DNA of 64,000 nucleotides from Citromicrobium bathyomarinum (GTDB taxonomy: Bacteria; Pseudomonadota; Alphaproteobacteria; Sphingomonadales; Sphingomonadaceae), in NCBI RefSeq assembly GCF_021021475.1, contig NZ_JAINWL010000002.1:558001-622000 (forward strand), given 5' to 3'. A program made the translations under genes and the position numbers. The notes beneath the pieces are model-generated. The model was not told the origin of the DNA, searched no databases, and saw only the letters and a list, made by a program, of their open reading frames with translations. Shown here piece by piece: positions 7,992 through 38,959 of this stretch; positions within the stretch are counted from its first letter, which is position 1, and every line of letters begins with the position of its first letter.

Positions 7992-8016
7992 GGGGCGGGC
8001 CGACAAGGCCCGCCCC
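7992..8016. terminator. Hairpin between convergent ppc and ggt
   Basis: A perfect 10-bp inverted repeat, GGGGCGGGCC (7992-8001) and GGCCCGCCCC (8007-8016), with a 5-nt loop. It lies 12 bases after the ppc stop and just beyond the ggt stop, so it can serve both genes. There is no T-run on either side, so it is a strong hairpin of uncertain intrinsic termination strength. Confidence 0.6.
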
Positions 8017-8021
8017 ATCGC

Positions 8022-9875
8022 TCAATAGCCCGAGGCCTGGCCGTCCTTGCGCATCTCGGTCGCGCCGACATAGACGCCACTCTCGGCATCGCGGGCGATC
8101 GCCTGATAGCCGCCGAACGGGATGCCGGTGGTCTCCACCTCGACATTGTGGCCCATCGCACGCAGTGCCTCCACGGTCGCAATGGGGATGCCGGGTTCGA
8201 CCATCAGCACGCCCAGATTGTCGATGTCCACGGTATCGGCGGCGCTACCTGCCAGCGCGTCGGTCGGCTGGCGGCCGCCATCGTGCATCAGCCGCGCGGC
8301 ATCGCCCGCCTCCTGCAGGTTCATCCCGTAGTCGACGAGGTTGATGAGGATCTGCACGTGCCCCTGCGGCTGCATCCCCCCGCCCATCAGCCCCAGCGTC
8401 ATGAACGGCTTGCCGTCTTTCTTTACGAAGGCCGGAATGATCGTGTGGAAGGGTCGCTTGCTGGGTGCGTAGGCATTGGGGTGTTCGGGATCGAGGCTGA
8501 ACAGCTCGCCGCGATCCTGGAACATGAAGCCAAGCCCTGGCGCGACAAGCCCGCCGCCCATGCCGCGATAATTGGACTGGATCAGGCTGACCATCATCCC
8601 GTCCTTGTCTGCCACGGTGAGGTAGGTGGTGTCGCCTTCACCCTCCAGCTTGGGCTCCACCTCAGGATCACCCGGCCCGAAAGCGGGCGTGGCACGCTCC
8701 GGATCGATCAGCGCGAACCGATCGCGTCCGTAGGCATCGCTCAGCAGGGCCTGCGGCGCGGCGGCGAAGTCGGGGTCGGCGTAGAAGCGCGCGACATCCT
8801 CGAACGCGAGGCGCTTGGCCTCGGTGATGTAGTGGATCACTTGCGGCGATCCGCGCTCCCACTGCGACAGGTCCACATTCTTGAGGATGTTGACCATCTG
8901 CAGCGCGGCGAAGCCCTGGCTGTTGGGCGGCAGTTCGCACAGCTCGTACCCCTTGCGATAGGCGACGCACGAGACATCGACCCACTCGCTGTCATGATTG
9001 GCGAAGTCCGCCAGCGTGAACGCGCTGCCCTGTTCGCGCAGATAGTCGACGATGATCCGCGCGGTTTCGCCTTCGTAATATTCGTCGCGTCCATTGCGCG
9101 CGATCCGCTCCAGCGTGTTGGCGAGATCGGGGTTCTTGAACATCTCGCCCGGCTTGGGCGCATCTCCGTCGGCGAACCAGGTCGCGCGGGCATTGTCGAA
9201 GTCGAAATCGAACCGCTTGAGCCGCGCCTCGTAGGCGGCGAGCGAACGGTCGAGATACATCGCGATCACCGGGGCCACCGGATGCCCTTCGCGTGCGTAG
9301 GTGATCGCAGGCGCGAGAATCTGCGTCATCGGCAGTTTGCCGAAGCGATCGTGCATGTCGAACCAGGCATCGACCGTGCCGGGAATGGTGATCGGCAAGG
9401 GCCCCACCGGCGGAATTGCGGTCGCGTCCGGCCCAAGCTTTTCCTTCAGCTGATCGAGAGTCTGGCCCGAGGGACTGCGGCCCGATCCGTTGATGCCGTA
9501 AAGCTTGTCGGTCTTGGGATCGTAGATGATCGCGAACAGGTCGCCGCCGATGCCGTTCCCGGTCGGCTCCATCAGGCCCAGCGCGGCGTTGGCGGCAATT
9601 GCCGCGTCGACCGCGCTGCCGCCCGCCTTGAGGATGTCGAGCGCGATCTGCGTCGCCAGCGGATGCGCGGTCGCGGCCATGCCGTGCGGTGCCGCCACCG
9701 GGGAGCGGCTCCAATCCGCACCCACGGGCCGCGCGCCCGCGCCGATTCCCTGCGTCGCATTTTCGGCGGTGTCGGCAGGGTTGAGCGGGGGCGGATCGTC
9801 CTGCGCCAGCGCCGGGCTGGCGATCAGCGCGCCTGCTGCGATGCCCGAAGCCAGAAAACTCGAAATTTTGCGCAT
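8022..9875 (-). CDS. ggt: Gamma-glutamyltransferase, periplasmic
   Basis: Transfers or hydrolyses the gamma-glutamyl group of glutathione and related peptides. The 617-residue precursor begins with a signal peptide (MRKISSFLASGIAAG..SPALAQD, cleavage after about residue 24). The family fold is a proenzyme that cuts itself before a threonine, which becomes the new N-terminal nucleophile. Here that is Thr416 in GDTTYLTVADKDG, splitting a large subunit of about 390 residues from a small one of about 200. N-terminal hallmarks AAPHGMAATAHPLAT and EPTGNGIGGDLFAI are present, as is GLMGGGMQPQGHVQ near the C-terminus. It is monocistronic and convergent with ppc. Likely role is glutathione salvage in the periplasm. 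Confidence 0.94.
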   Translation of the reverse strand: MRKISSFLASGIAAGALIASPALAQDDPPPLNPADTAENATQGIGAGARPVGADWSRSPVAAPHGMAATAHPLATQIALDILKAGGSAVDAAIAANAALGLMEPTGNGIGGDLFAIIYDPKTDKLYGINGSGRSPSGQTLDQLKEKLGPDATAIPPVGPLPITIPGTVDAWFDMHDRFGKLPMTQILAPAITYAREGHPVAPVIAMYLDRSLAAYEARLKRFDFDFDNARATWFADGDAPKPGEMFKNPDLANTLERIARNGRDEYYEGETARIIVDYLREQGSAFTLADFANHDSEWVDVSCVAYRKGYELCELPPNSQGFAALQMVNILKNVDLSQWERGSPQVIHYITEAKRLAFEDVARFYADPDFAAAPQALLSDAYGRDRFALIDPERATPAFGPGDPEVEPKLEGEGDTTYLTVADKDGMMVSLIQSNYRGMGGGLVAPGLGFMFQDRGELFSLDPEHPNAYAPSKRPFHTIIPAFVKKDGKPFMTLGLMGGGMQPQGHVQILINLVDYGMNLQEAGDAARLMHDGGRQPTDALAGSAADTVDIDNLGVLMVEPGIPIATVEALRAMGHNVEVETTGIPFGGYQAIARDAESGVYVGATEMRKDGQASGY

Positions 9876-28759: not shown

Positions 28760-28941
28760 CTGTTTCCCCTGAAATTTCATCGCGCGCGACTCGCGCCGAT
28801 GTTACAGGGTAACTCGCTATTGGCCTTGCCCGCGTGGTGCAAGGGCGGCGCACTGTCGTTCGTCGGTCTGAATGGCGCGTTGGTCCGGAGCCGATCATTA
28901 TATCAGCGTTCCCCCGCAGCGCTGCGCGGTCGCCAAAACCG

Positions 28942-28964
28942 TGCCGATCGGTTAGCCATCGGCA
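28942..28964. promoter_or_regulatory. Inverted repeat upstream of acs
   Basis: A perfect 7-bp inverted repeat, TGCCGAT (28942-28948) and ATCGGCA (28958-28964), with a 9-nt spacer, ending 25 bases before the acs start. Its symmetry and position fit an operator for a dimeric regulator acting on acs. The gap between acs and the divergent S46 gene (230 bases) must hold both promoters; nothing else in it is recognised with confidence. Confidence 0.4.
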
Positions 28965-28989
28965 AAACACGATTGGGAGAGCCAGCGCC

Positions 28990-30912
28990 GTGAGCGAATT
29001 CATCGACCCGCCGCAGACCGCGAAGACCAACTGCACCGCAGCGCAGTACGAGGCGGATTACGCCCGCTCGCTGTCCGACCCGGACGGGTTCTGGCTTGAG
29101 CAGGCGCAGCGGCTCGACTGGATCGATGCCCCCACCAAAGGCGGCGAATGGTCGTTTGACCCGGTCGATATCAAGTGGTTCGCCGACGGCGCGCTCAACC
29201 TGTGTCACAATGCAGTCGACCGGCATCTGGCCGACAAGGCGGACAAGACTGCGCTCATCTTCGAGCCCGACGAGCCCGACGGCGAAATCCGCACACTGAC
29301 CTACGCCGATCTTCATCGTGAGGTCGTGCGCATGGCCAATGCGCTCAAGGCGATGGGCGTGACCAAGGGCGCGCGGGTCACGCTTTACATGCCGATGGTG
29401 GTCGAAGGCGTGGTCGCGATGCTCGCCTGCGCGCGGTTGGGCGCGATCCATTCGGTCGTGTTCGGCGGATTCTCGCCCGAGGCGCTGGCCGGCCGCATCA
29501 TCGATTGCGACAGCCAGTTCGTGATCACCGCCGATGAAGGCCTGCGCGGGAGCAAGCCGATCCCCCTCAAGGCCAATGTCGATGCCGCTGTCGACGAACA
29601 CGATACTCCGGTGAAGGGCGTGCTGGTGATCGCCCATACCGGGGCGGACATCGCGATGAAGCAGGGCCGCGACCACTGGTACGCCGACCTTGCCAGTGAA
29701 GACGACTGCCCGTGCGAGCCGATGAATGCGGAAGACCCGCTGTTCATCCTCTATACCTCGGGCTCGACCGGCAAGCCTAAGGGTGTGCTGCACACCACCG
29801 GCGGCTACGGCGTGTGGACCGCGACAACCTTCCACTATGCGTTCGATCACAGGCCGGATGACATCTTCTGGTGTTCCGCCGACATCGGTTGGATCACCGG
29901 GCACAGCTACGTCACCTACGGACCGCTGCTGAACGGCGCGACACAGGTGATCTTCGAAGGCGTGCCCAACTATCCCGACCACGGGCGGTTCTGGCAGGTG
30001 ATCGAAAAGCACAGGGTTTCGATCTTTTACACCGCGCCGACCGCAATCCGCGCGCTGATGCGCGAGGGCGACCGCTTCGTCACCGCGCACGACCGCTCGA
30101 GCCTGCGCCTGCTTGGTTCGGTGGGCGAGCCGATCAATCCCGAAGCATGGCGCTGGTATCGCGACGTGCCGGGCGAGGGCCGGGTGCCGGTGGTCGATAC
30201 CTGGTGGCAGACCGAGACGGGCGGTATCATGCTGACCACGCTGCCCGCCGCCCACGCGATGAAACCGGGCAGTGCCGGCCTGCCGTTCTTCGGCGTGCAG
30301 CCGCAACTGGTCGACAATGAAGGCGGCGTGCTGGAAGGCGTTGCGGAGGGCAATCTGTGCCTTGCCGCGAGCTGGCCGGGGCAGGCGCGCACCGTCTACG
30401 GCGATCACGACCGCTTCGTGCAGACCTATTTCAGCACCTACAAGGGCAAGTACTTTACAGGCGATGGGTGCCAACGCGATGCGCACGGCTACTACCGCAT
30501 CACCGGGCGGGTCGACGATGTGATCAACGTCTCCGGCCACCGGATGGGCACCGCCGAAGTCGAGAGCGCGCTGGTGCTCCACCCGCATGTGGCGGAAGCC
30601 GCGGTGGTCGGCTTCCCGCACGACATCAAGGGGCAGGGCATCTATTGCTATGTCACGCTCAACGCGGGCGATGACGGTTCGGACGCGCTTGCGGAGGAAC
30701 TGCGCCAGCAGGTCCGCAAGGAAATCGGCCCGGTGGCCACGCCTGACCGGATCCATTTCACCGATGCTTTGCCAAAGACCCGTTCGGGCAAGATCATGCG
30801 CCGTATCCTGCGCAAGATCGCCGAGAACGATTATGGTTCTCTGGGCGATACATCGACGCTCGCAGACCCGTCGCTGGTCGATCGGCTGATCGAGGGGCGC
30901 GTCTCCGGATGA
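28990..30912 (+). CDS. acs: Acetyl-CoA synthetase
   Basis: Activates acetate to acetyl-CoA through acetyl-AMP. The GTG 28990 start has GGGAGA at 28975-28980 and gives 640 residues, normal for Acs; the open frame to 28834 upstream lies in the promoter region. Motifs: the P-loop-like [20 protein letters not shown] near residue 250, [10 protein letters not shown] near 405, the hinge region [20 protein letters not shown] near 505, and the C-terminal [15 protein letters not shown] with Lys601, the residue whose acetylation silences Acs in other bacteria. [20 protein letters not shown] is typical for acetate-specific Acs rather than longer-chain ligases. Confidence 0.96.
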
Positions 30913-31026: not shown

Positions 31027-32451
31027 TTGAGCTTCGACGAAATGCTTGGATATGATGGGGGCAAGTCGGGCGAGACCCGGGAAGCCTACCAGGCATTTCG
31101 CAAATGGCTCGATTCCCAACCTGACAACCGGGTCCTGCGAAAGTCCGAGCAGGCGGAGAATTTCTTCCGCAAGATCGGTATCACCTTCAACGTCTATGGC
31201 GAAGAGGCGGCGGATGAGCGCCTGATCCCGTTCGACGTCGTGCCGCGCGTGCTGTCGGGCAACGAATGGCGCAAGCTCTCCAAGGGGATCGAGCAGCGCG
31301 TTCGTGCGATCAATGCATTCCTGTACGATATCTATCACCGGCAGGAGATCCTGCGCGCAGGACGTGTGCCCGAAAGCCTGATCGCCAATAATGCCGCGTT
31401 CCTGCCCAAGATGATGGGCTTCGATCCGCCCGGCGGCATCTACACCCACATCATCGGCACCGACATCGTGCGCACCGGGCCCGACGAATTCTACGTGCTG
31501 GAAGACAATGCGCGGACCCCCTCGGGCGTGTCCTACATGCTCGAAAACCGCGAGATCATGCTCCAGATGTTTCCGGAGCTGTTCGCGGATATCCCGATCC
31601 GCGAGGTGAGCGATTACCCTAGCTGGCTGCGCCGCTCGCTGTCGTCATGCGCGCCTGCCGCCTGCCTCGACAAGCCGACCGTGGCCGTGCTGACGCCGGG
31701 AACATTCAACTCCGCCTATTTCGAACACAGCTTCCTCGCCGATCAGATGGGTGCGGAACTGATCGAGGGGTCCGACCTCAGGGTGATCGACGGGCGGGTC
31801 GCGATGCGCACCACGCAAGGCTACAAGCCGGTCGACGTGATCTACCGCCGGATCGACGACGAGTATCTCGATCCGCTCAACTTCAATCCGCAATCGATGC
31901 TCGGCGTGCCGGGGATCTTCGATGTGTATCGCGCGGGCGGTGTGACCATCGCCAATGCGCCGGGCACGGGGATCGCCGACGACAAGGCGCTGTACAGCTA
32001 CATGCCCGAGATCGTGAAATTCTACACCGGCGAAGAACCGCTGTTGAAGAACGTGCCCACCTGGCGCTGTTCGGAGCCCGACCAGCTGGCCGAAGTGCTC
32101 GACAAGCTGGACGAGCTGGTGGTGAAAGAGGTCCATGGATCGGGCGGCTACGGCATGCTGATCGGCCCGACCGCCAGCAAGCAGGAAATCGCCGACTTCC
32201 GCGCAAAGCTGAAGGAACAGCCCGAAGGCTACATCGCACAGCCCACGCTGGCGCTGTCGACCGTGCCGATCTTTACCGAGCAGGGCCTTGCCCCGCGCCA
32301 CGTCGATTTCCGCCCCTTCGTGCTGATGGCGCCCAATTCGATTGACATCGTGCCCGGCGGGCTGACCCGCGTGGCGATGAACGAAGGATCGCTGGTCGTG
32401 AATTCGAGCCAGGGCGGTGGGACCAAGGATACATGGGTGCTCGATGACTGA
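31027..32451 (+). CDS. Circularly permuted ATP-grasp type 2 protein (COG2308)
   Basis: A 474-residue protein of the family formerly split as DUF404/DUF407, an ATP-grasp fold with permuted order. Members are predicted amide- or peptide-bond-forming ligases; no substrate is established for this branch. Typical segments are RAINAFLYDIYHRQEILRAG near residue 90, DIVRTGPDEFYVLEDNARTP near 148, VKEVHGSGGYGMLIGP near 365 and the C-terminal VPGGLTRVAMNEGSLVVNSS with GGGTKDTWVL. The start is TTG 31027 with GGGA upstream; ATG 31042 would lose only five residues. It is followed by alpha-E, transglutaminase and Anbu genes, the classic neighbourhood of this family. Confidence 0.92.
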   Translation: MSFDEMLGYDGGKSGETREAYQAFRKWLDSQPDNRVLRKSEQAENFFRKIGITFNVYGEEAADERLIPFDVVPRVLSGNEWRKLSKGIEQRVRAINAFLYDIYHRQEILRAGRVPESLIANNAAFLPKMMGFDPPGGIYTHIIGTDIVRTGPDEFYVLEDNARTPSGVSYMLENREIMLQMFPELFADIPIREVSDYPSWLRRSLSSCAPAACLDKPTVAVLTPGTFNSAYFEHSFLADQMGAELIEGSDLRVIDGRVAMRTTQGYKPVDVIYRRIDDEYLDPLNFNPQSMLGVPGIFDVYRAGGVTIANAPGTGIADDKALYSYMPEIVKFYTGEEPLLKNVPTWRCSEPDQLAEVLDKLDELVVKEVHGSGGYGMLIGPTASKQEIADFRAKLKEQPEGYIAQPTLALSTVPIFTEQGLAPRHVDFRPFVLMAPNSIDIVPGGLTRVAMNEGSLVVNSSQGGGTKDTWVLDD

Positions 32452-32483
32452 TCGCGCGACGACCCTTTCGATGGAGGCGCGCG

Positions 32484-33431
32484 ATGCTGGGTAAGACCGC
32501 ATCAGGCCTGTTCTGGATGTTCCGCTATCTCGAGCGGGCGGAGGCGACCGCGCGTCTGCTCGACGCAGGTTTCCGGATCGCGCTGACGCGTGCAGGTTCG
32601 TCGCGTTCGGAATGGCAGTCCGTGCTGACCACGGTCGGCCAGCTGGATGCTTTCAAGGCCCGACATGGCGAGCCAAACTCGTCCAAGGTGATCGAATTCC
32701 TGCTCAGCGACCGCGACAATCCCTCCAGCATCATCTCGATGGTCAAATCCGCGCGCGACAATGCGCGCGGCGTCCGGATCGGGCTGACCAGCGAGGTGTG
32801 GGAAGCGACCAACGAAAGCTGGATGACGCTCGACAAGCTGCTGCGCGGGACCATCCCCGAAGCGGACCTGCCCGACACGCTGACCACGATCCGCCAGCAG
32901 AACGCGCTGGTGCGCGGCGCGACCACCGGCACGATGCTGCGCAACGACGGATTCAATTTCGTGCGGCTGGGCACCTTCATCGAACGCGCCGACAACACCG
33001 CGCGCATCCTCGATGTGAAGTACTACCTGCTGCTGCCCTCGATCAGCCAGGTCGGCTCGACGCTCGACATCAAACAGTGGGAGACGATCCTGCGCTCTGT
33101 CTCGGCGCTGCGCAGTTATCAGTGGCTCCACGGCGCGACGGTCAATCCGCGCGACATCGCCCAGTTCCTGATCCTGCATGAACAGATGCCGCGCAGCCTC
33201 GCGTTCTGCTATAACAAGATATGCGACAATCTGGGCTACCTCGCGAAGAACTACGACAACCGCACGGAGTCCTGCGAATTGGCCGACCGCATTCACCTCG
33301 ACTATCTGGGCCGTTCGATGGACTCCATCTTCGACGACGGCCTGCACGAGTTCATCGAGAGCTTCCTCGACGCGAACAACCGGCTCGCGAGCCAGATTTC
33401 CACCGACTATTCGTTCGGACCGGGCGCATGA
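32484..33431 (+). CDS. Alpha-E domain protein (COG2307/DUF403)
   Basis: A 315-residue mostly helical protein with the family N-terminus MLGKTASGLFWMFRYLERAE and the later FVRLGTFIERADNTARILDVK, two matching ExxERAxxTAR-like segments that suggest an internal repeat. The alpha-E domain has no known catalytic activity; it almost always accompanies the circularly permuted ATP-grasp protein and in some species is fused to it, so it is probably a structural or substrate-presenting partner. GGAGG lies 8 bases before the ATG. Its stop overlaps the transglutaminase start (ATGA). Confidence 0.92.
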   Translation: MLGKTASGLFWMFRYLERAEATARLLDAGFRIALTRAGSSRSEWQSVLTTVGQLDAFKARHGEPNSSKVIEFLLSDRDNPSSIISMVKSARDNARGVRIGLTSEVWEATNESWMTLDKLLRGTIPEADLPDTLTTIRQQNALVRGATTGTMLRNDGFNFVRLGTFIERADNTARILDVKYYLLLPSISQVGSTLDIKQWETILRSVSALRSYQWLHGATVNPRDIAQFLILHEQMPRSLAFCYNKICDNLGYLAKNYDNRTESCELADRIHLDYLGRSMDSIFDDGLHEFIESFLDANNRLASQISTDYSFGPGA

Positions 33432-34228
33432 GGCTGCGGGTCGATCACGAAACGCGTTACACCTATGACGCGCCCGTCTCCTACGGGCTGCAGCAGGTCC
33501 GCATGCGGCCGAAAGACAGCCGCGGCCAGAAGGTGCTGGACTGGACCATCACGGTCGAGGGCGGGGCGACCGAGCTGTGCTATGACGATCACAACGGCAA
33601 CCGGGTCGACCTGATCGGGATCGAGCCGGGCCGCACCGAAACCTCCATCCGTTGCGTCGGCCTGGTCGAAAACACCGAGGGTGACGGCGTTCTGGGCAAG
33701 CACCAGGGCTTCCTGCCGCTGTGGCACTTCAAGCGCTCTTCCCCGCTGACGCAGGCGGGCGAGGGTGTGCGCAAGCTGGTGGCCGGTCTAGGCGATTGCG
33801 ACATTGCGCAGGTTTCCACCGGGCACGCATTGTCCGCCGCGATTCTCGATACGGTCGGCTATGAAGGCGGCAACACCCATTCGGGCACCACGGCGGAAGA
33901 AGCGATCACGGGCGGCACCGGCGTGTGTCAGGACCACGCGCATATCTTCTGTTCGGCCGCCCGGTTGATGGGCCTGCCTGCACGCTACGTCTCGGGCTAC
34001 CTGATGATGAACGACCGGGTCGAACAGGATGCCAGCCACGCCTGGGCGGAAGCCTACTTCGAAGGCTTGGGCTGGGTTGGTTTCGATGTGTCCAACGGCT
34101 ATTCCCCCGACGAGCGCTATATCCGCGTTGCCACCGGGATAGACTTTCGCGAGGCCGCGCCGATCAACGGCATGAGGATGGGGGGAAGTGACGAAGGCGT
34201 GCTTGTCACCCTGAAGGTCGAGCAATAG
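33428..34228 (+). CDS. Transglutaminase-like cysteine protein (COG1305)
   Basis: A 266-residue protein with an N-terminal beta domain (MRLRVDHETRYTYDAPVSYG) and a transglutaminase-core domain. The papain-like triad is complete: Cys167 in GTGVCQDHAHI, His204 in DASHAWAEAY and Asp220 in GFDVSNGY. Family members cleave or rearrange amide bonds as peptidases or acyltransferases; most bacterial ones are probably hydrolases. The start chosen is ATG 33428, which overlaps the alpha-E stop (ATGA); a longer frame lies inside that gene. Paired with an ATP-grasp ligase and a proteasome-like peptidase it suggests a make-and-break cycle on a peptide bond. Confidence 0.92.
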   Translation: MRLRVDHETRYTYDAPVSYGLQQVRMRPKDSRGQKVLDWTITVEGGATELCYDDHNGNRVDLIGIEPGRTETSIRCVGLVENTEGDGVLGKHQGFLPLWHFKRSSPLTQAGEGVRKLVAGLGDCDIAQVSTGHALSAAILDTVGYEGGNTHSGTTAEEAITGGTGVCQDHAHIFCSAARLMGLPARYVSGYLMMNDRVEQDASHAWAEAYFEGLGWVGFDVSNGYSPDERYIRVATGIDFREAAPINGMRMGGSDEGVLVTLKVEQ

Positions 34229-34263
34229 TCCTTTCCCCACAACTACGACGAGTGCCGAACTAG

Positions 34264-35019
34264 ATGACCTATTGCGTGGGCATGCGGCTGGACCGCGGCC
34301 TGATCTTCATGTCCGATACGCGGACCAATGCAGGCGTCGACGACGTCTCGCAGGTGCGCAAGATGCGCCACTGGGAAAACCCGGGAGAGCGGATCATCAC
34401 GCTGCTTTCGGCGGGCAATCTCGCGACCACGCAGGCGGTCGTCAGCCTGCTGGACGAGCGGACCAAGGCGCCGTCTGAACGCGACCCGTCGATCCTGTCG
34501 GCCCCGTCCATGTTCCAGATCGCGACCATCGTGGGCAATACCCTGCGCGAGGTGATTGCGTCGCTGCGGCACGAGGGGCCCGAGGCGAGCGCTTCGTTCC
34601 GCGCGAGCCTGATCCTAGGCGGCCAGATCGCGGGCAGCGAACCGCGCCTGTTCCTGATCTACCCGGAAGGCAACTTCATCGAGGCGGGCGATGACTCGCC
34701 CTTCTTCCAGACCGGCGAGACCAAGTATGGTCGCCCGATCATCGTGCGCACCTTCGACCCTGCGATGACCTTCGAGGATGCGACCCGGCTGCTGATGGTC
34801 AGCTTCGATTCGACCATCCGCTCCAACCTGGCAGTCGATCTCCCACTGGACCTGGCGACTTACGAACGCGATGCGTGCAAGCTTGCCCACCAGCAGCGGA
34901 TCGAAGTGAACGATCCCTATTTCCGTCGCATCTCCGAGCAATGGAGCCTGTCGCTCCGCGAGGCGGTCAACCGCCTGCCGCCGTTCGAATTCGAAACCGG
35001 CGCGGCGAGCGAGGACTGA
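34264..35019 (+). CDS. Anbu (bacterial proteasome homologue, COG3484)
   Basis: A 251-residue N-terminal nucleophile hydrolase of the proteasome/HslV superfamily. The protein begins MTYCVGMRLDRGLIFMSDTR: removal of Met would expose Thr as the catalytic residue, and the SDTRTNAGVDDV segment carries the conserved Asp. Anbu particles form open helical rings rather than closed chambers in the species examined (established for other members); their substrate is unknown. No ATPase unfoldase such as HslU is encoded nearby, as is usual for Anbu. The gene lies 35 bases after the transglutaminase gene and completes the ATP-grasp/alpha-E/transglutaminase/Anbu operon. Confidence 0.93.
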   Translation: MTYCVGMRLDRGLIFMSDTRTNAGVDDVSQVRKMRHWENPGERIITLLSAGNLATTQAVVSLLDERTKAPSERDPSILSAPSMFQIATIVGNTLREVIASLRHEGPEASASFRASLILGGQIAGSEPRLFLIYPEGNFIEAGDDSPFFQTGETKYGRPIIVRTFDPAMTFEDATRLLMVSFDSTIRSNLAVDLPLDLATYERDACKLAHQQRIEVNDPYFRRISEQWSLSLREAVNRLPPFEFETGAASED

Positions 35020-35057: not shown

Positions 35058-35387
35058 ATGGACATGACGCAGCTCGACGAAAACGTGTGGGTCGCGGGGC
35101 AGATCGACCCGGCAGACTTGCCCGCGCTGGCCGATCGTGGCTTCCGCTCGATCATCGGCAACCGCCCCGATGGCGAGGAACCCGGCCAGCCAAGCTGGTC
35201 CGTGATTGCTGCGGCCGCGCAGGATGCTGGGATCGAGGCACGGCATATCCCCATCGCCGGGCCGGACGATATCGCCGCGCGCAAAGACGATTTCGCGCAG
35301 GCACTGGCCGAGATGCCGGGCCCGGTACTGGCCTTCTGCCGCTCCGGCGCGCGCTCGGGCCGCCTCTACGAAGCGGCGCAAGGCTAA
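35058..35387 (+). CDS. TIGR01244-type phosphatase/sulfurtransferase-like protein
   Basis: A 109-residue protein, MDMTQLDENVWVAGQIDPAD at the start and the loop FCRSGARSGRLYEAA near the C-terminus, a Cys-x5-Arg active-site loop of the kind found in dual-specificity phosphatase-like and rhodanese-like proteins. The N-terminal VWVAGQIDPADLPALADRGF matches the small domain that in other bacteria is fused to a Blh metallo-beta-lactamase-fold sulfur dioxygenase-like protein. Here it stands alone. AAGAGGA lies about 9 bases upstream. It follows Anbu by 38 bases, so it may belong to that operon. Real substrate unknown. Confidence 0.8.
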   Translation: MDMTQLDENVWVAGQIDPADLPALADRGFRSIIGNRPDGEEPGQPSWSVIAAAAQDAGIEARHIPIAGPDDIAARKDDFAQALAEMPGPVLAFCRSGARSGRLYEAAQG

Positions 35388-35429: not shown

Positions 35430-38400
35430 TCAGTACATTTGCAGATGTTCAAGGCCTGCGTCCGGCAGGGTTACCTGCAGCATGGGCCAGTCGCCTGATC
35501 CGTCTACCGCAGGCTGCGCGAAGGCTGCGGGGAAGTTCTGCATATGAGGGCCGCCAGCCCCGGTCGGACGATCGAACTGCGCCAGCGCGCGGACCGCATC
35601 ATTGTACGCGTGTCCGCTCCAGCCATCGTCGAAGCGATATTCGTACGCAGCCTCCTGCGATACGACCGCGGCGGAGCCCGACCCATCGGGGGCGTAGCCC
35701 AGTTCGGTCGCGCTCAGGCTGTCCGGTGAGACGCCGACCAGCCTGAAGATGGTCGCAAAGGCGTAGTTCTCGCCCGAAGCACCATCGCGGTCGTACTGGA
35801 TCAGCGTGTCCTCGCCCTCAGCGACCAGTTGCAGGTGCCCGGTGGCGAAGGGATTGGAACCGGCCGGCAAGTTCTGCGATGCCGAGTTCAGGAAGCCTGT
35901 GAGCGAGAGCCGGTCTTCTCCCGCGGTGAAATCGGTCACCACGACCTCGCTACCGAGGCTGTAGGCAATCGTGTTGAGCAGCGACTGGACCGTGATGGCG
36001 TCGCTTCCGGCCCCCAGGGTCACGCTCTGCGAGCCCCCGAATATGCTGATATTGACGGAATCATCGCCTTCGCCAGCATCGATCAAGCCCAACCGGACCC
36101 CGCCGACATAAATCTGGTCGGCGCCCGTCCCACCGACCACCGTGACATCATCAATGTAGCGCACGGAATTGAAAAAGATCCGGTCTTCGCCCTGGCCGCC
36201 ATCGAGAAGGAGGACGCTGGAGGCCTGAGTCAGGCGTGAGACGAACAGGGTGTCATTGCCCCGCTGGCCGAACAGCCGGTCGTTCCCACCGCCGATGTCG
36301 TCGAGAATATCGTCCGATATATCCGGCCCAGCGTCGTTGAAATTATTGCCGTAGAGCGTGTCGTTGCCCAACCCACCGTTGAGCTGGTCCGCACCTTCGC
36401 CGCCTTCGATAAGGTCGTCGTCCGCTCGGCCCCAGATCGTATCGTCTCCGGCAAGACCGCTGAGAGTATCGGCTCCATTGCTGCCGCTCAGGATTTCACG
36501 CGCGGACGTACCGGTAAACGTCTCCCCGACCGGGGCGTCGCCATTTATTGGGTAACCCAGCTCGCGCGCAGTCATTGTGGCGGCGGTTCTGCCGGTGAAG
36601 CTCACCACGGACTGCGGACTATAGGCGCTCTGGGATGCACCGTCCCGGTCGATCTGGAGCGTCGCGGTGCCGTTCACATCGACCAGTTGCAGGTGCCCGC
36701 TCGCGAAGGGGTTGGTCGCCGGATCCCAGCCGATCAGGTACTCGGGGAGATATTCCTCAAGAGCCAGGCGATCCTCACTGGCAGTCATATCCGTGATGAT
36801 AATCGTTGCGTCGGGTGAGGCGACCGGGTCTCGGCGCTCCAGCCAGATGATATCATTCCCCGTCCCGAGAGTGATCGTCTGCACCCCCCCACTCGGATTG
36901 ATCACGACGAAGTCGTCTCCCGACCCAGCGTCAACCGTGCTTTGCGAGACGGCGTTGACAATGATCTCGTCATCGCCGGATCCGCCGAGGATGGTGACGG
37001 TATCAACATAGCGGGTGCTGGAAAAAACGATCGAATCGTTTCCGGCTCCGCCATCGAGTAACAAGACATTGGCCGTCTGGCTGGAGCGACTGACACCGAT
37101 ATAATCGTTTCCGTCCTGGCCGTAGAGGCGGTCATTTCCGCCCCCATCGTCGAAAAGGACGTCGTTACCGCCATCGTCGAAACCGGCGGCGTCTCCGTAG
37201 AGGATGTCATCGCCCGCTCCGCCGTAGAGCGTGTCGTTTCCTGCACCCCCTTCGAGGAAGTCGTCTCCGCTACCGCCATATATGAAGTCCCCCCCTCCGA
37301 GTGCGCGGATCAGGTCGCCCGCTTCGGTCCCGTACAAGGACTCGAATTCAGAGGTTCCGGTAATCTCGTTGAGATTGGTGACATACAGCGTGACGGCGAA
37401 GGAACTGGCAAGCACGCCGTCGCTGGCGGTCACTATGATCTCGTAAGTGTTGTCGCCGTTCCCATCAGCCGGGGCCTCGAAATCGGCGGCCTGGCGGAAA
37501 CTGACCGCGCCGGTCCGGGCGTCGATCGAGAATGCCTCCGCATCCTCGCCGCTCAGCGAAAAGAACAGCGTGTTGTTGTCCGGATCGCTCGCCGTAACGG
37601 TATATGCCAGCACCGATCCTTCGAGGAGCGTCACGGCATCGCTGCTGGTGATCGTCGGCGCGCGATTGCCGCTGAGCGAGACATAGGTGAAGTCGCCGCC
37701 GAAGCCGACGATATCCGCCTGGCCGTCTCCATTCACATCGGCCAGCGTGCGGTAGAACCGGTCGTTCGAAAACCAGCCGCCGCCCGCATCGCTTGCGCCG
37801 AAGGACCGCAGCGCGAGGGTGGGATCCGCAAAGGTTCCGTCGCCATTGCCGAGCGCGACGTAAGCGCCGAGCCCGCCAAAGCCGACGATGTCGGCATACC
37901 CGTCGCCGTTCATGTCGGCGAGGCGGCGCGGATAGGTATCGCTGCTGGTCCAGCCGCCGCCTTCGGGTGCGAAGCCGAAGCTGGCGAGGCCGAGAATGGT
38001 CGGGCCGAAGCCACCACTCTCCTGCGCCAGCGCAACGAACACGCCATTTGCACCGAAGCCGACGATGTCCGCCCGGCCATCTCCGTTCACGTCCGCCATT
38101 TCGCGCGGATAGCGCTCGGAAGAGGCCCAGCCGCCAGCAACATCGCTTGCACCGAAGCCATTATAGGCGAGCGTCGCCTGCGCGAAGGTGGCGTCTTCGC
38201 GGGCGAGTGAGACGTAAACTCCTGCCGATCCGAAGCCGACGAGATCTGCCCGTCCGTCGCCATTCACATCGGCCGCGGTGCGCGGATAGATGCCTTCGTT
38301 GGTCCAGCCGCCTGCCTCGATCGCGGCGCCGAACCCGTTATAGGCGAGCGCAACGTCGCCGAAGCGGACCGGCTGCTCAGCCGTCGGCGCGAGGCCGAGT

Positions 38401-38813
38401 GCGACATAGACGCCCGCCGATCCGAAGCCGAGCAGGTCAGCGCGGCCATCTCCGTTCACATCTGCAAGCATTCGCGGATAGACGGAGTTGTTAGCCCACC
38501 CACCGGCCTCGGCGCTGGCCCCGAAGCTGTTGTAGGCGAGCAATGTCTCGCCGAACCCGCCGGCCGGATCGGCCAGCGCGACGAAGACGCCAGCAGCGCC
38601 GAAGCCGACGATGTCCGCGCGGCCATCGCCGTTCACGTCGGCCATGCGGCGCGGAAAGGTGGTGTCGTCGGTCCAGCCGCCGGCGACGGGGCTGTAACCG
38701 AATCCGCGATAGGCAGACACAGGCGGGGCGAGGCTCACCTCGCCGCTTCGGGCGAATTCGGCATCCCGCACTTCGTTACGCGCAAGCATCCGCGCATGTC
38801 CGCGATAGGTCAT
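35430..38813 (-). CDS. Secreted FG-GAP / cadherin-like / RTX calcium-binding protein
   Basis: A 1127-residue protein with no N-terminal signal peptide, as expected for type I secretion. Residues about 35-385 carry six FG-GAP/VCBS-type repeats of about 60 residues, each with a calcium-binding core like DVNGDGRADIVGFG. Residues about 385-482 form a cadherin-like domain (LAYTVTASDPDNNTL, FSIDARTGAV). Residues about 483-1040 hold two tandem modules of RTX nonapeptides (GGAGNDTLYGGAGDDILYGD type), and an 85-residue non-repetitive tail ends the protein. ATG 38813 with GAGGGG upstream is preferred to TTG 38867. Likely an adhesin or surface/extracellular matrix protein. No type I exporter genes are in the window. 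Confidence 0.9.
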   Translation of the reverse strand: MTYRGHARMLARNEVRDAEFARSGEVSLAPPVSAYRGFGYSPVAGGWTDDTTFPRRMADVNGDGRADIVGFGAAGVFVALADPAGGFGETLLAYNSFGASAEAGGWANNSVYPRMLADVNGDGRADLLGFGSAGVYVALGLAPTAEQPVRFGDVALAYNGFGAAIEAGGWTNEGIYPRTAADVNGDGRADLVGFGSAGVYVSLAREDATFAQATLAYNGFGASDVAGGWASSERYPREMADVNGDGRADIVGFGANGVFVALAQESGGFGPTILGLASFGFAPEGGGWTSSDTYPRRLADMNGDGYADIVGFGGLGAYVALGNGDGTFADPTLALRSFGASDAGGGWFSNDRFYRTLADVNGDGQADIVGFGGDFTYVSLSGNRAPTITSSDAVTLLEGSVLAYTVTASDPDNNTLFFSLSGEDAEAFSIDARTGAVSFRQAADFEAPADGNGDNTYEIIVTASDGVLASSFAVTLYVTNLNEITGTSEFESLYGTEAGDLIRALGGGDFIYGGSGDDFLEGGAGNDTLYGGAGDDILYGDAAGFDDGGNDVLFDDGGGNDRLYGQDGNDYIGVSRSSQTANVLLLDGGAGNDSIVFSSTRYVDTVTILGGSGDDEIIVNAVSQSTVDAGSGDDFVVINPSGGVQTITLGTGNDIIWLERRDPVASPDATIIITDMTASEDRLALEEYLPEYLIGWDPATNPFASGHLQLVDVNGTATLQIDRDGASQSAYSPQSVVSFTGRTAATMTARELGYPINGDAPVGETFTGTSAREILSGSNGADTLSGLAGDDTIWGRADDDLIEGGEGADQLNGGLGNDTLYGNNFNDAGPDISDDILDDIGGGNDRLFGQRGNDTLFVSRLTQASSVLLLDGGQGEDRIFFNSVRYIDDVTVVGGTGADQIYVGGVRLGLIDAGEGDDSVNISIFGGSQSVTLGAGSDAITVQSLLNTIAYSLGSEVVVTDFTAGEDRLSLTGFLNSASQNLPAGSNPFATGHLQLVAEGEDTLIQYDRDGASGENYAFATIFRLVGVSPDSLSATELGYAPDGSGSAAVVSQEAAYEYRFDDGWSGHAYNDAVRALAQFDRPTGAGGPHMQNFPAAFAQPAVDGSGDWPMLQVTLPDAGLEHLQMY
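35684..37368 (-). repeat. Tandem duplicated RTX module inside the large secreted protein
   Basis: Two consecutive modules of about 280 residues (approximately 36530-37368 and 35684-36529). Each runs: RTX nonapeptides, a linker with GGGNDRLYGQDGND or GGGNDRLFGQRGND, a segment VLLLDGGAGNDSI or VLLLDGGQGEDRI, then RYVDTVTILGGSGDD or RYIDDVTVVGGTGAD, a TASEDRLAL or TAGEDRLSL strand, NPFASGHLQLV or NPFATGHLQLV, and a closing ELGY. The order matches one to one, showing duplication of a whole module rather than independent RTX arrays. Confidence 0.85.
37670..38710 (-). repeat. Six FG-GAP repeats in the large secreted protein
   Basis: Six tandem units of about 180-200 bases encode the pattern GGW(T/A/F)-P/YPR-(M/L)ADVNGDGxADxxGFGxxGxYVAL. 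The DNA shows recurring blocks of near-identical sequence, but these follow from the protein repeats and the calcium-binding DxNGDG loops. The fifth unit deviates (DMNGDGY). Confidence 0.85.
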
Positions 38814-38959
38814 CCCAGAACCCCTCGCCTCGCCTCCGGAGCGCAGGATGAAGCTTCTTACAGCCAACCGCGTTCACGATCCGATAACGGTTTAACGCCT
38901 GCCGGATCATGAGAACAGGATTTTTGGCAAGTCCGGGGAGGGTGTTCCCCCGGTCGGCG

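Follow-up and report, generated by a model that had tools for sequence, protein, structure and literature searches.

The closest described relatives of the locus considered here are the Anbu operons of Pseudomonas putida (PP_2685-2688) and Yersinia bercovieri, in which genes for a circularly permuted ATP-grasp protein, an Alpha-E protein, a transglutaminase-like cysteine hydrolase and the proteasome-like Ntn hydrolase Anbu follow one another. Anbu was named in 2008, and a hypothesis for the operon followed in 2009 (as cited in PMC5666114). A related cluster of Burkholderia cenocepacia (I35_5080-83) comprises DUF404/407, DUF403 and two transglutaminase-domain proteins, one of them large, with no Anbu in the gene list available. 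A 64,000-nucleotide stretch of the Citromicrobium bathyomarinum genome (contig NZ_JAINWL010000002.1, positions 558,001 to 622,000; hereafter the window) carries, at 31027–35019, an ordinary copy of this published and unsolved operon: the families and the four-gene order are the same, on a single strand, and the Anbu pocket is of the Anbu-1 type described in the literature. The window operon differs from those of P. putida and Y. bercovieri in that no sigma-54 site was seen and in that it is followed by a phosphatase-like gene matched only within the genus. An earlier interpretation of the same DNA (the original prediction) held that the system has no settled role, and the available parts of the published accounts indeed give none.

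We tentatively explain the operon, with a probability short of even, as an amide make-and-break system in which the ATP-grasp/Alpha-E pair ligates, two hydrolases cut, and amine nitrogen is stored and released. The ATP-grasp, as an obligate partner of Alpha-E, would activate a small acid or peptide by phosphorylating its carboxylate, and the pair would then link the activated acid to an amine, much as glutathionylspermidine and peptide-spermidine synthetases do. The transglutaminase-like Cys-His-Asp enzyme and the Thr-type Anbu would be two separate amide hydrolases, presumably cytoplasmic, that cut either the product of the pair or peptides feeding the pathway. Amine nitrogen would thereby be stored and released, with the genes more active at low ammonium, as in the species measured and, we infer, in the host genus. 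Of these parts, the ligase step is likely and the make-and-break cycle plausible. The reading builds on features observed here (the genes, their order, their intact residues, the fold class of the ATP-grasp and its strict co-occurrence with Alpha-E), as well as on published nitrogen control in Pseudomonas and Burkholderia and phosphate release by the Yersinia ATP-grasp. In its favour are the fold neighbours and ExNA motif of the ATP-grasp, its pairing with Alpha-E in 112 of 112 genomes, the fusion of the two in a paralogue, the linkage of Anbu to Alpha-E, and the nitrogen data. If right, it would describe a widespread route that links amide chemistry to nitrogen shortage and might supply Anbu with a substrate.

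The four genes are separated by 32, -4 (an ATGA overlap) and 35 bp, and their coordinates, strand and order (Table 1) are all as originally predicted. The Pfam models CP_ATPgrasp_2 (E 9e-164) and Alpha-E (E 1e-91) matched the first two, and Transglut_core (E 1e-22) and Bact_transglu_N (E 1e-18) the third; we take the ATP-grasp to belong to COG2308. The Proteasome model matched the fourth gene weakly (E 2e-5; 24.8 bits, the cut-off being 22.4), and its identity therefore follows from five solved Anbu sequences in the PDB, which match it at E 2e-63 to 3e-89 (5loy, a designed Anbu, 3e-89; 5nyj, 2e-76). A second and stronger Proteasome-family gene in the 3.2-Mb window genome is probably hslV.

Catalytic residues are intact in all three enzymes, those of the ATP-grasp (E159/N161) being putative, and the residues originally named for the two hydrolases are both correct and conserved. 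Before alignment, loci were thinned to 88% identity, and further hand trimming left 56 of 64 for the transglutaminase-like protein and 51 of 55 for Anbu. The transglutaminase-like C167, H204 and D220 were invariant among 57 aligned sequences and were kept in 91, 94 and 94, respectively, of 94 distinct sequences in a wider set that includes paralogues (127 near-full of 152 matches). The catalytic set of Anbu is Thr1, Asp17 and Lys32 if the start Met is removed; counted with that Met, T2 was found in 89, and D18 and K33 in 90 each, of 90 distinct sequences (103 near-full of 116 matches). The fold and the Thr1/Asp17/Lys set are shared with HslV and the 20S proteasome beta subunit, from which the window Anbu differs in having no unfoldase gene directly beside it and Anbu in general in being published as an open split ring (PMC8665760). 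The S1 pocket of the window Anbu (T20, V30, S48, L52, T55) is similar, not identical, to that of Pa-Anbu from Pseudomonas (T20, F30, T48, L52, S55), which binds proteasome inhibitors (PMC5666114). Caulobacter hvyA was considered as a counterpart of the operon transglutaminase and set aside, as it sits in a capsule locus (CCNA_00161-00167).

The ATP-grasp carries the motif LEDNARTPSG at residues 158-167 and a lid, VVKEVHGSGGYGM, at 365-377. Sequence search matched it to PDB 3n6x from Methylobacillus flagellatus (E 2e-191), a direct homologue with 57% identity in structural alignment; for the name of that entry, "putative glutathionylspermidine synthase", no backing assay was found in the published accounts available. 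A fold search with the AlphaFold model (mean pLDDT 82; five models, 70.7-82.1) returned 3n6x first (E 5e-56), followed by homoglutathione and glutathione synthetases (E from 9e-13), the fungal amide ligase Cp1B (E 3e-10), E. coli glutathionylspermidine synthetase (Gss; E 1e-9), YgiC (E 3e-9), YjfC (E 8e-8) and trypanothione synthetase, with TM-scores of about 0.4-0.6 for matches other than 3n6x. YgiC is annotated as a peptide--spermidine ligase. Aligned by eye, LEDNARTPS corresponds to LENNADTPT of YgiC and YEYNADSAS of Gss, an ExNA motif common to all three; the lid likewise aligns with VVKPIFSREG of YgiC (the lid lysine pattern), with no match to this pattern in Gss. By analogy with human glutathione synthetase, the ExNA motif suggests that E159 and N161 bind magnesium; both were kept in 78 of 78 near-full unfused ATP-grasps (69 distinct), the alignment having used 50 of 50 loci and the wider set 92 near-full of 97 matches. 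In Gss a synthetase is paired with an amidase, a cysteine enzyme, as ligase and hydrolases are in the window operon, although the window hydrolases are separate proteins. Cp1B couples epoxysuccinate with an amino acid, forming ADP (PMC12568646). The original assignment of the ATP-grasp as a former of amide or peptide bonds is supported by the fold and motif of carboxylate-amine ligases.

That this neighbourhood recurs in many bacteria, as first stated, is confirmed by the presence of all four genes in 75 of the best 80 of at least 588 confirmed loci, a sample biased to near relatives; the grouping is therefore not due to chance. Along the operon the gaps had medians of 5 bp (76 gene pairs), 4 bp (78) and 32.5 bp (78). 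Three of the five incomplete loci (L064, L065 and L111) are cut by a contig start, and two differ in content: L080 gave no transglutaminase match, and L059 (Maricaulaceae) has Anbu alone, at 8001-8738, with no match to the other three genes in its 16.7 kb. Among 149 genomes of the family, Anbu and Alpha-E were each found in 124, with both in 118, Anbu alone in six (one of them, G106, a partial match), Alpha-E alone in six and neither in 19; the two lay less than 3 kb apart in 112 of the 117 family genomes compared. These and the following counts, Fisher tests included, treat related genomes as independent, and those for PF04168 lump fused with unfused Alpha-E. Across 200 genomes of the phylum, Alpha-E was found in 112, every one of which also has the ATP-grasp; the latter was found in 116 (113 above the curated cut-off), the four extra matches being weak (E 2e-4 to 1e-7). 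Anbu was found in 69, of which 68 have Alpha-E (Fisher p 6e-22), within 3 kb in 47 and at 3-10 kb in 13 more. Because the best ATP-grasp match was an unfused frame (at most 616 aa) in 111 of the 112 genomes, with G293 having the fused type only, the pairing is not an artefact of fused proteins. The strict unit is therefore ATP-grasp plus Alpha-E, and Anbu follows the pair rather than the reverse. In the E. coli genome used as a control, nothing matched Alpha-E.

Two observations on the history of the operon stand beside these counts. Family Anbu proteins fall into two identity groups relative to the window protein (54-100% and 38-47%), which suggests two operon lineages or replacement. The operon of locus L090 is no more distant from that of the window than alphaproteobacterial ones are (63% for Anbu, 74% for ATP-grasp), yet its contig bears the acidobacterial name Candidatus Sulfopaludibacter, as might result from transfer or from a misbinned contig. 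Judged by Anbu, the nearest named relative among the loci listed was Alteriqipengyuania abyssalis (96%), records of the window's own genome possibly being excluded.

Neither the nitrogen- or NtrC-dependent expression reported in P. putida and Burkholderia nor the strict ATP-grasp/Alpha-E pairing figured in the original prediction. In P. putida, genes of PP_2685-2688 rise under nitrogen limitation, which has been attributed to NtrB/NtrC (PMC7801951; PMC3325844), and PP_2685 and PP_2688 rise on nitrate relative to ammonium (PMC8050072); in B. cenocepacia, loss of ntrC lowers the listed genes of cluster I35_5080-83 by 6.0- to 9.4-fold (PMC5491218). By its place, PP_2687 is probably the Alpha-E gene, next to the ATP-grasp gene PP_2688. 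Domains of the operon type are associated with urea-metabolism domains in marine metagenomes (PMC3597751). Little weight was given to an association study in Sinorhizobium that points to the regulatory region of a COG2308 gene (PMC8407117) or to two further reports (PMC4264754; PMC3710099). The same nitrogen control and urea association would also fit a scavenging role, which we think has a low probability, in which the pair acylates otherwise unusable amines for breakdown by other enzymes and the hydrolases recover the acyl donor. The model for such a role is the Puu pathway, in which glutamate ligation prepares putrescine for breakdown. Against it, no oxidase was present among the seven identified of 14 clusters of flanking genes.

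Several points weigh against the make-and-break cycle. The ATP-grasp alignment profile, a narrow one, gave no match to the single E. coli Gss sequence searched, and the relation of the two proteins therefore rests on fold and a short motif. The Yersinia ATP-grasp releases phosphate from ATP, with no stimulation by Anbu, HslV, glutamine or glutamate and with Alpha-E not among the additions listed; this could be plain ATP hydrolysis, from which the authors could not distinguish ligation (PMC6376114). As to expression, one P. putida table, read without its column heads, gives values of 1.12, 4.81 and 1.45 for Anbu in three strains, little change in two of them, and of 11-37 for the other three genes; the increase is found in the rpoN mutant as well. 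Expression from the DNA immediately upstream of PP_2685 was constitutive (PMC8050072), and Fuchs et al. reported operon expression unchanged under various conditions other than nitrogen limitation (PMC5666114). The DNA ahead of the window operon showed no sigma-54 site: the best score in a home-made scan, 11 of 16, was equalled or bettered by 84% of mononucleotide shuffles, and sigma-54 control of this copy was set aside as no better than chance; 14 of 16 was reached in 4 of the 77 loci scored. Since NtrC of Caulobacter and Rhodobacter is reported to act at sigma-70 promoters (PMC10274813), the missing site does not exclude control by NtrC. Induction through NtrC, reported in a few species, is not a defining property of Anbu operons, nor is a sigma-54 promoter. 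The window genome does contain rpoN; in genome G000 (C6:707170-707657), the match to a sigma-54 activator domain is split into two pieces in different open frames, and the gene may be interrupted or the assembly in error.

The remaining points of this kind concern Anbu, which showed no peptidase or amidase activity in the published tests available, proteasome peptides included (PMC6376114; PMC5666114), and which, as bait in a pull-down, recovered no specific partner among the operon proteins (PMC6376114). Among the 112 phylum genomes that have Alpha-E, 44 gave no Anbu match, and Anbu is therefore not required everywhere that the pair works; conversely, it occurs without Alpha-E in the six of 124 family genomes noted above. 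An explanation that accommodates these gaps, and that we regard as rather unlikely, is that Anbu is a separate, ATP-independent starvation peptidase that merely co-travels with a pair making an unrelated metabolite. Its solitary occurrence in L059, its departure from the other three genes in the P. putida table and the preference of Fuchs et al. for protein degradation, on data that they consider to make a role in peptide synthesis less likely (PMC5666114), all speak for a separate enzyme; the presence of Alpha-E in all but one of the Anbu-bearing phylum genomes, and its proximity to Anbu in the family, speak against it.

Tagging-type hypotheses have been credited to Iyer (2009) and to Valas and Bourne (2008; refs 16 and 15 of PMC6376114). 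In such a scheme, proteins would be tagged with a peptide or amino acid by the ATP-grasp and Alpha-E, and Anbu would remove the tag or degrade the tagged protein. The operon structure, the binding of proteasome inhibitors by Pa-Anbu and the near-complete retention of Thr1, Asp17 and Lys32 would suit this scheme, which is nevertheless quite unlikely in our view, given that no unfoldase gene lies directly beside the window operon, that the operon proteins did not bind Anbu specifically, that proteins structurally related to the ATP-grasp have small substrates and that the pair is so often kept where Anbu was not found. The original prediction had likewise proposed a small peptide or peptide tag, made by the ATP-grasp on an Alpha-E scaffold and trimmed or recycled by the transglutaminase-like hydrolase and Anbu; its recurrence, ligase fold and motif, and hydrolase residues stand, but the peptide-tag product, the scaffold role and the trimming are hypothetical, the published activity tests and pull-down telling against trimming by Anbu in particular.

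Alpha-E is a tandem duplication and an arginine-rich helical protein. When its two halves were compared within the family alignment, they matched with a probability of 97% (E 8e-11, score 68), against 13.4 for reversed columns, 10.6-15.5 for halves of the other three proteins and at most 20.9 in 40 column shuffles. Each half carries an ER motif (E17-R18 and E167-R168), and invariant residues pair up across the halves in an alignment of 58 sequences (E17/E167, R18/R168, R24/R174, W44/W199 and S82/S238), for which 57 of 59 loci were used, without L054, whose frame held two stops, and L109. In a wider set of 61 distinct proteins (76 near-full of 131 matches), E17, R18 and R168 were kept in 60 each, E167 in 61, W44 in 53 and S238 in 50. 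The model (mean pLDDT 88) had no PDB or viral-model match at E 0.001 (best, 0.11 and 0.12), and Alpha-E could not be placed as a known fold, the sequence search having given a single chance PDB match (E 0.65). A relation to HEPN proteins was discarded, as the text match concerned DUF4037 rather than DUF403. No statement of the duplication was found in the parts of the literature covered by the search, to which the founding paper (Iyer, 2009) did not belong. Nor was ATP-grasp binding to Alpha-E reported in the available parts of published accounts. An insertion in a Klebsiella DUF403 gene was enriched in the mouse gut, but with a single insertion site it carries little weight (PMC6414703).

Many genomes encode, besides the unfused pair, a fused ATP-grasp/Alpha-E protein about 850 aa long. 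Among the loci fetched were 16 such proteins (L189, 7901-10519; L203, 5010-7556; and 14 further loci), several of them from related genomes, and the positions of E159 and N161 are replaced in all 16 (14 aligned near-full, two in part). An open reading frame of more than 1000 aa matching the transglutaminase profile was present in 15 of the 16 loci, and two of these giant frames, when scanned against Pfam, were found to combine transglutaminase with DUF2126, a putative amidoligase; the window genome gave no DUF2126 match. When Alpha-E was aligned leniently across 16 frames, of which 14 are true fusions, R18 and R168 were kept in all and E17 and E167 in 15. L123 and L183, which represent a single gene of genome G310, do not count as true fusions, because their ATP-grasp lies in a separate 483-aa frame, and the true fusions L194 and L196 fell below the cut of this alignment. 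It is conceivable, at a probability that we put near the bottom of the range, that Alpha-E rather than the ATP-grasp is the constant working part. Its two Arg/Glu sites would then bind an activated acyl group or anionic substrate and complete amide formation, with the ATP-grasp activating in the four-gene operon and, in the fused paralogue, where its putative metal ligands are gone, serving as a scaffold while the neighbouring transglutaminase-DUF2126 protein activates. The loss of R174, W44 and W199 in most fused paralogues (kept in 4, 2 and 3 of the 16 frames) counts against this proposal; if true, it would reveal a two-subunit amide synthetase of new design. Together, the pairing, the ligand loss in the fused paralogue and the fact that Alpha-E is duplicated and of unmatched fold point to it as a protein worth testing. 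These pairing data, the Alpha-E duplication and unmatched fold, the ATP-grasp fold neighbours and the ligand loss are new here; among the papers listed, by titles and abstract openings, in a search outside which most subscription papers and preprints lay, no publication on the pairing, the Alpha-E duplication or fold, or the ligand loss was found.

Table 1. Genes of the Anbu operon and its immediate surroundings in the window.
Feature	Position	Strand	Remarks
Circularly permuted ATP-grasp (Pfam CP_ATPgrasp_2)	31027-32451	+	474 aa, TTG start
Alpha-E (PF04168)	32484-33431	+	315 aa, all-helical model
Transglutaminase-like cysteine hydrolase	33428-34228	+	266 aa; Bact_transglu_N and Transglut_core; C167, H204, D220
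Anbu, proteasome-like Ntn hydrolase	34264-35019	+	251 aa
BLH_phosphatase/TIGR01244 gene	35058-35387	+	same strand as Anbu, directly after it
Large ORF	35430-38867	-	1145 aa; calcium-binding repeat and type I secretion target domain matches
Acetate--CoA ligase gene	28834-30912	+	same strand as the operon, directly upstream; 114-bp gap before 31027

Greedy gene calls around the loci miss genes in G+C-rich DNA and served only for choosing scans and for the giant transglutaminase frames. No AAA+ unfoldase gene adjoins the window operon directly, its flanks being the acetate--CoA ligase gene, the BLH phosphatase-domain gene and the calcium-repeat protein. The phosphatase-like gene was considered as a conserved fifth member and rejected, as it was matched only in the same-genus loci L002, L003 and L032, with no match in L033 or L041. 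Of the 14 clusters of flanking genes found in at least five genera, none was both close and in the same direction across families. The seven that were identified encode an ABC-transporter ATPase, BA14K, QueA, TGT, a DeoR regulator, a cyclophilin and DsbD; the ATPase was the widest (nine genera), but its median distance is 5.1 kb and it occurs on either strand, so it is not an operon partner. Rfam models matched no RNA element anywhere in the window. Promoter-like sites numbered two, one of them sitting on a start codon, and the single terminator-like site lay within a gene. In several Sphingopyxis loci, a homologue of the acetate--CoA ligase gene lies downstream of the operon, on the opposite strand.

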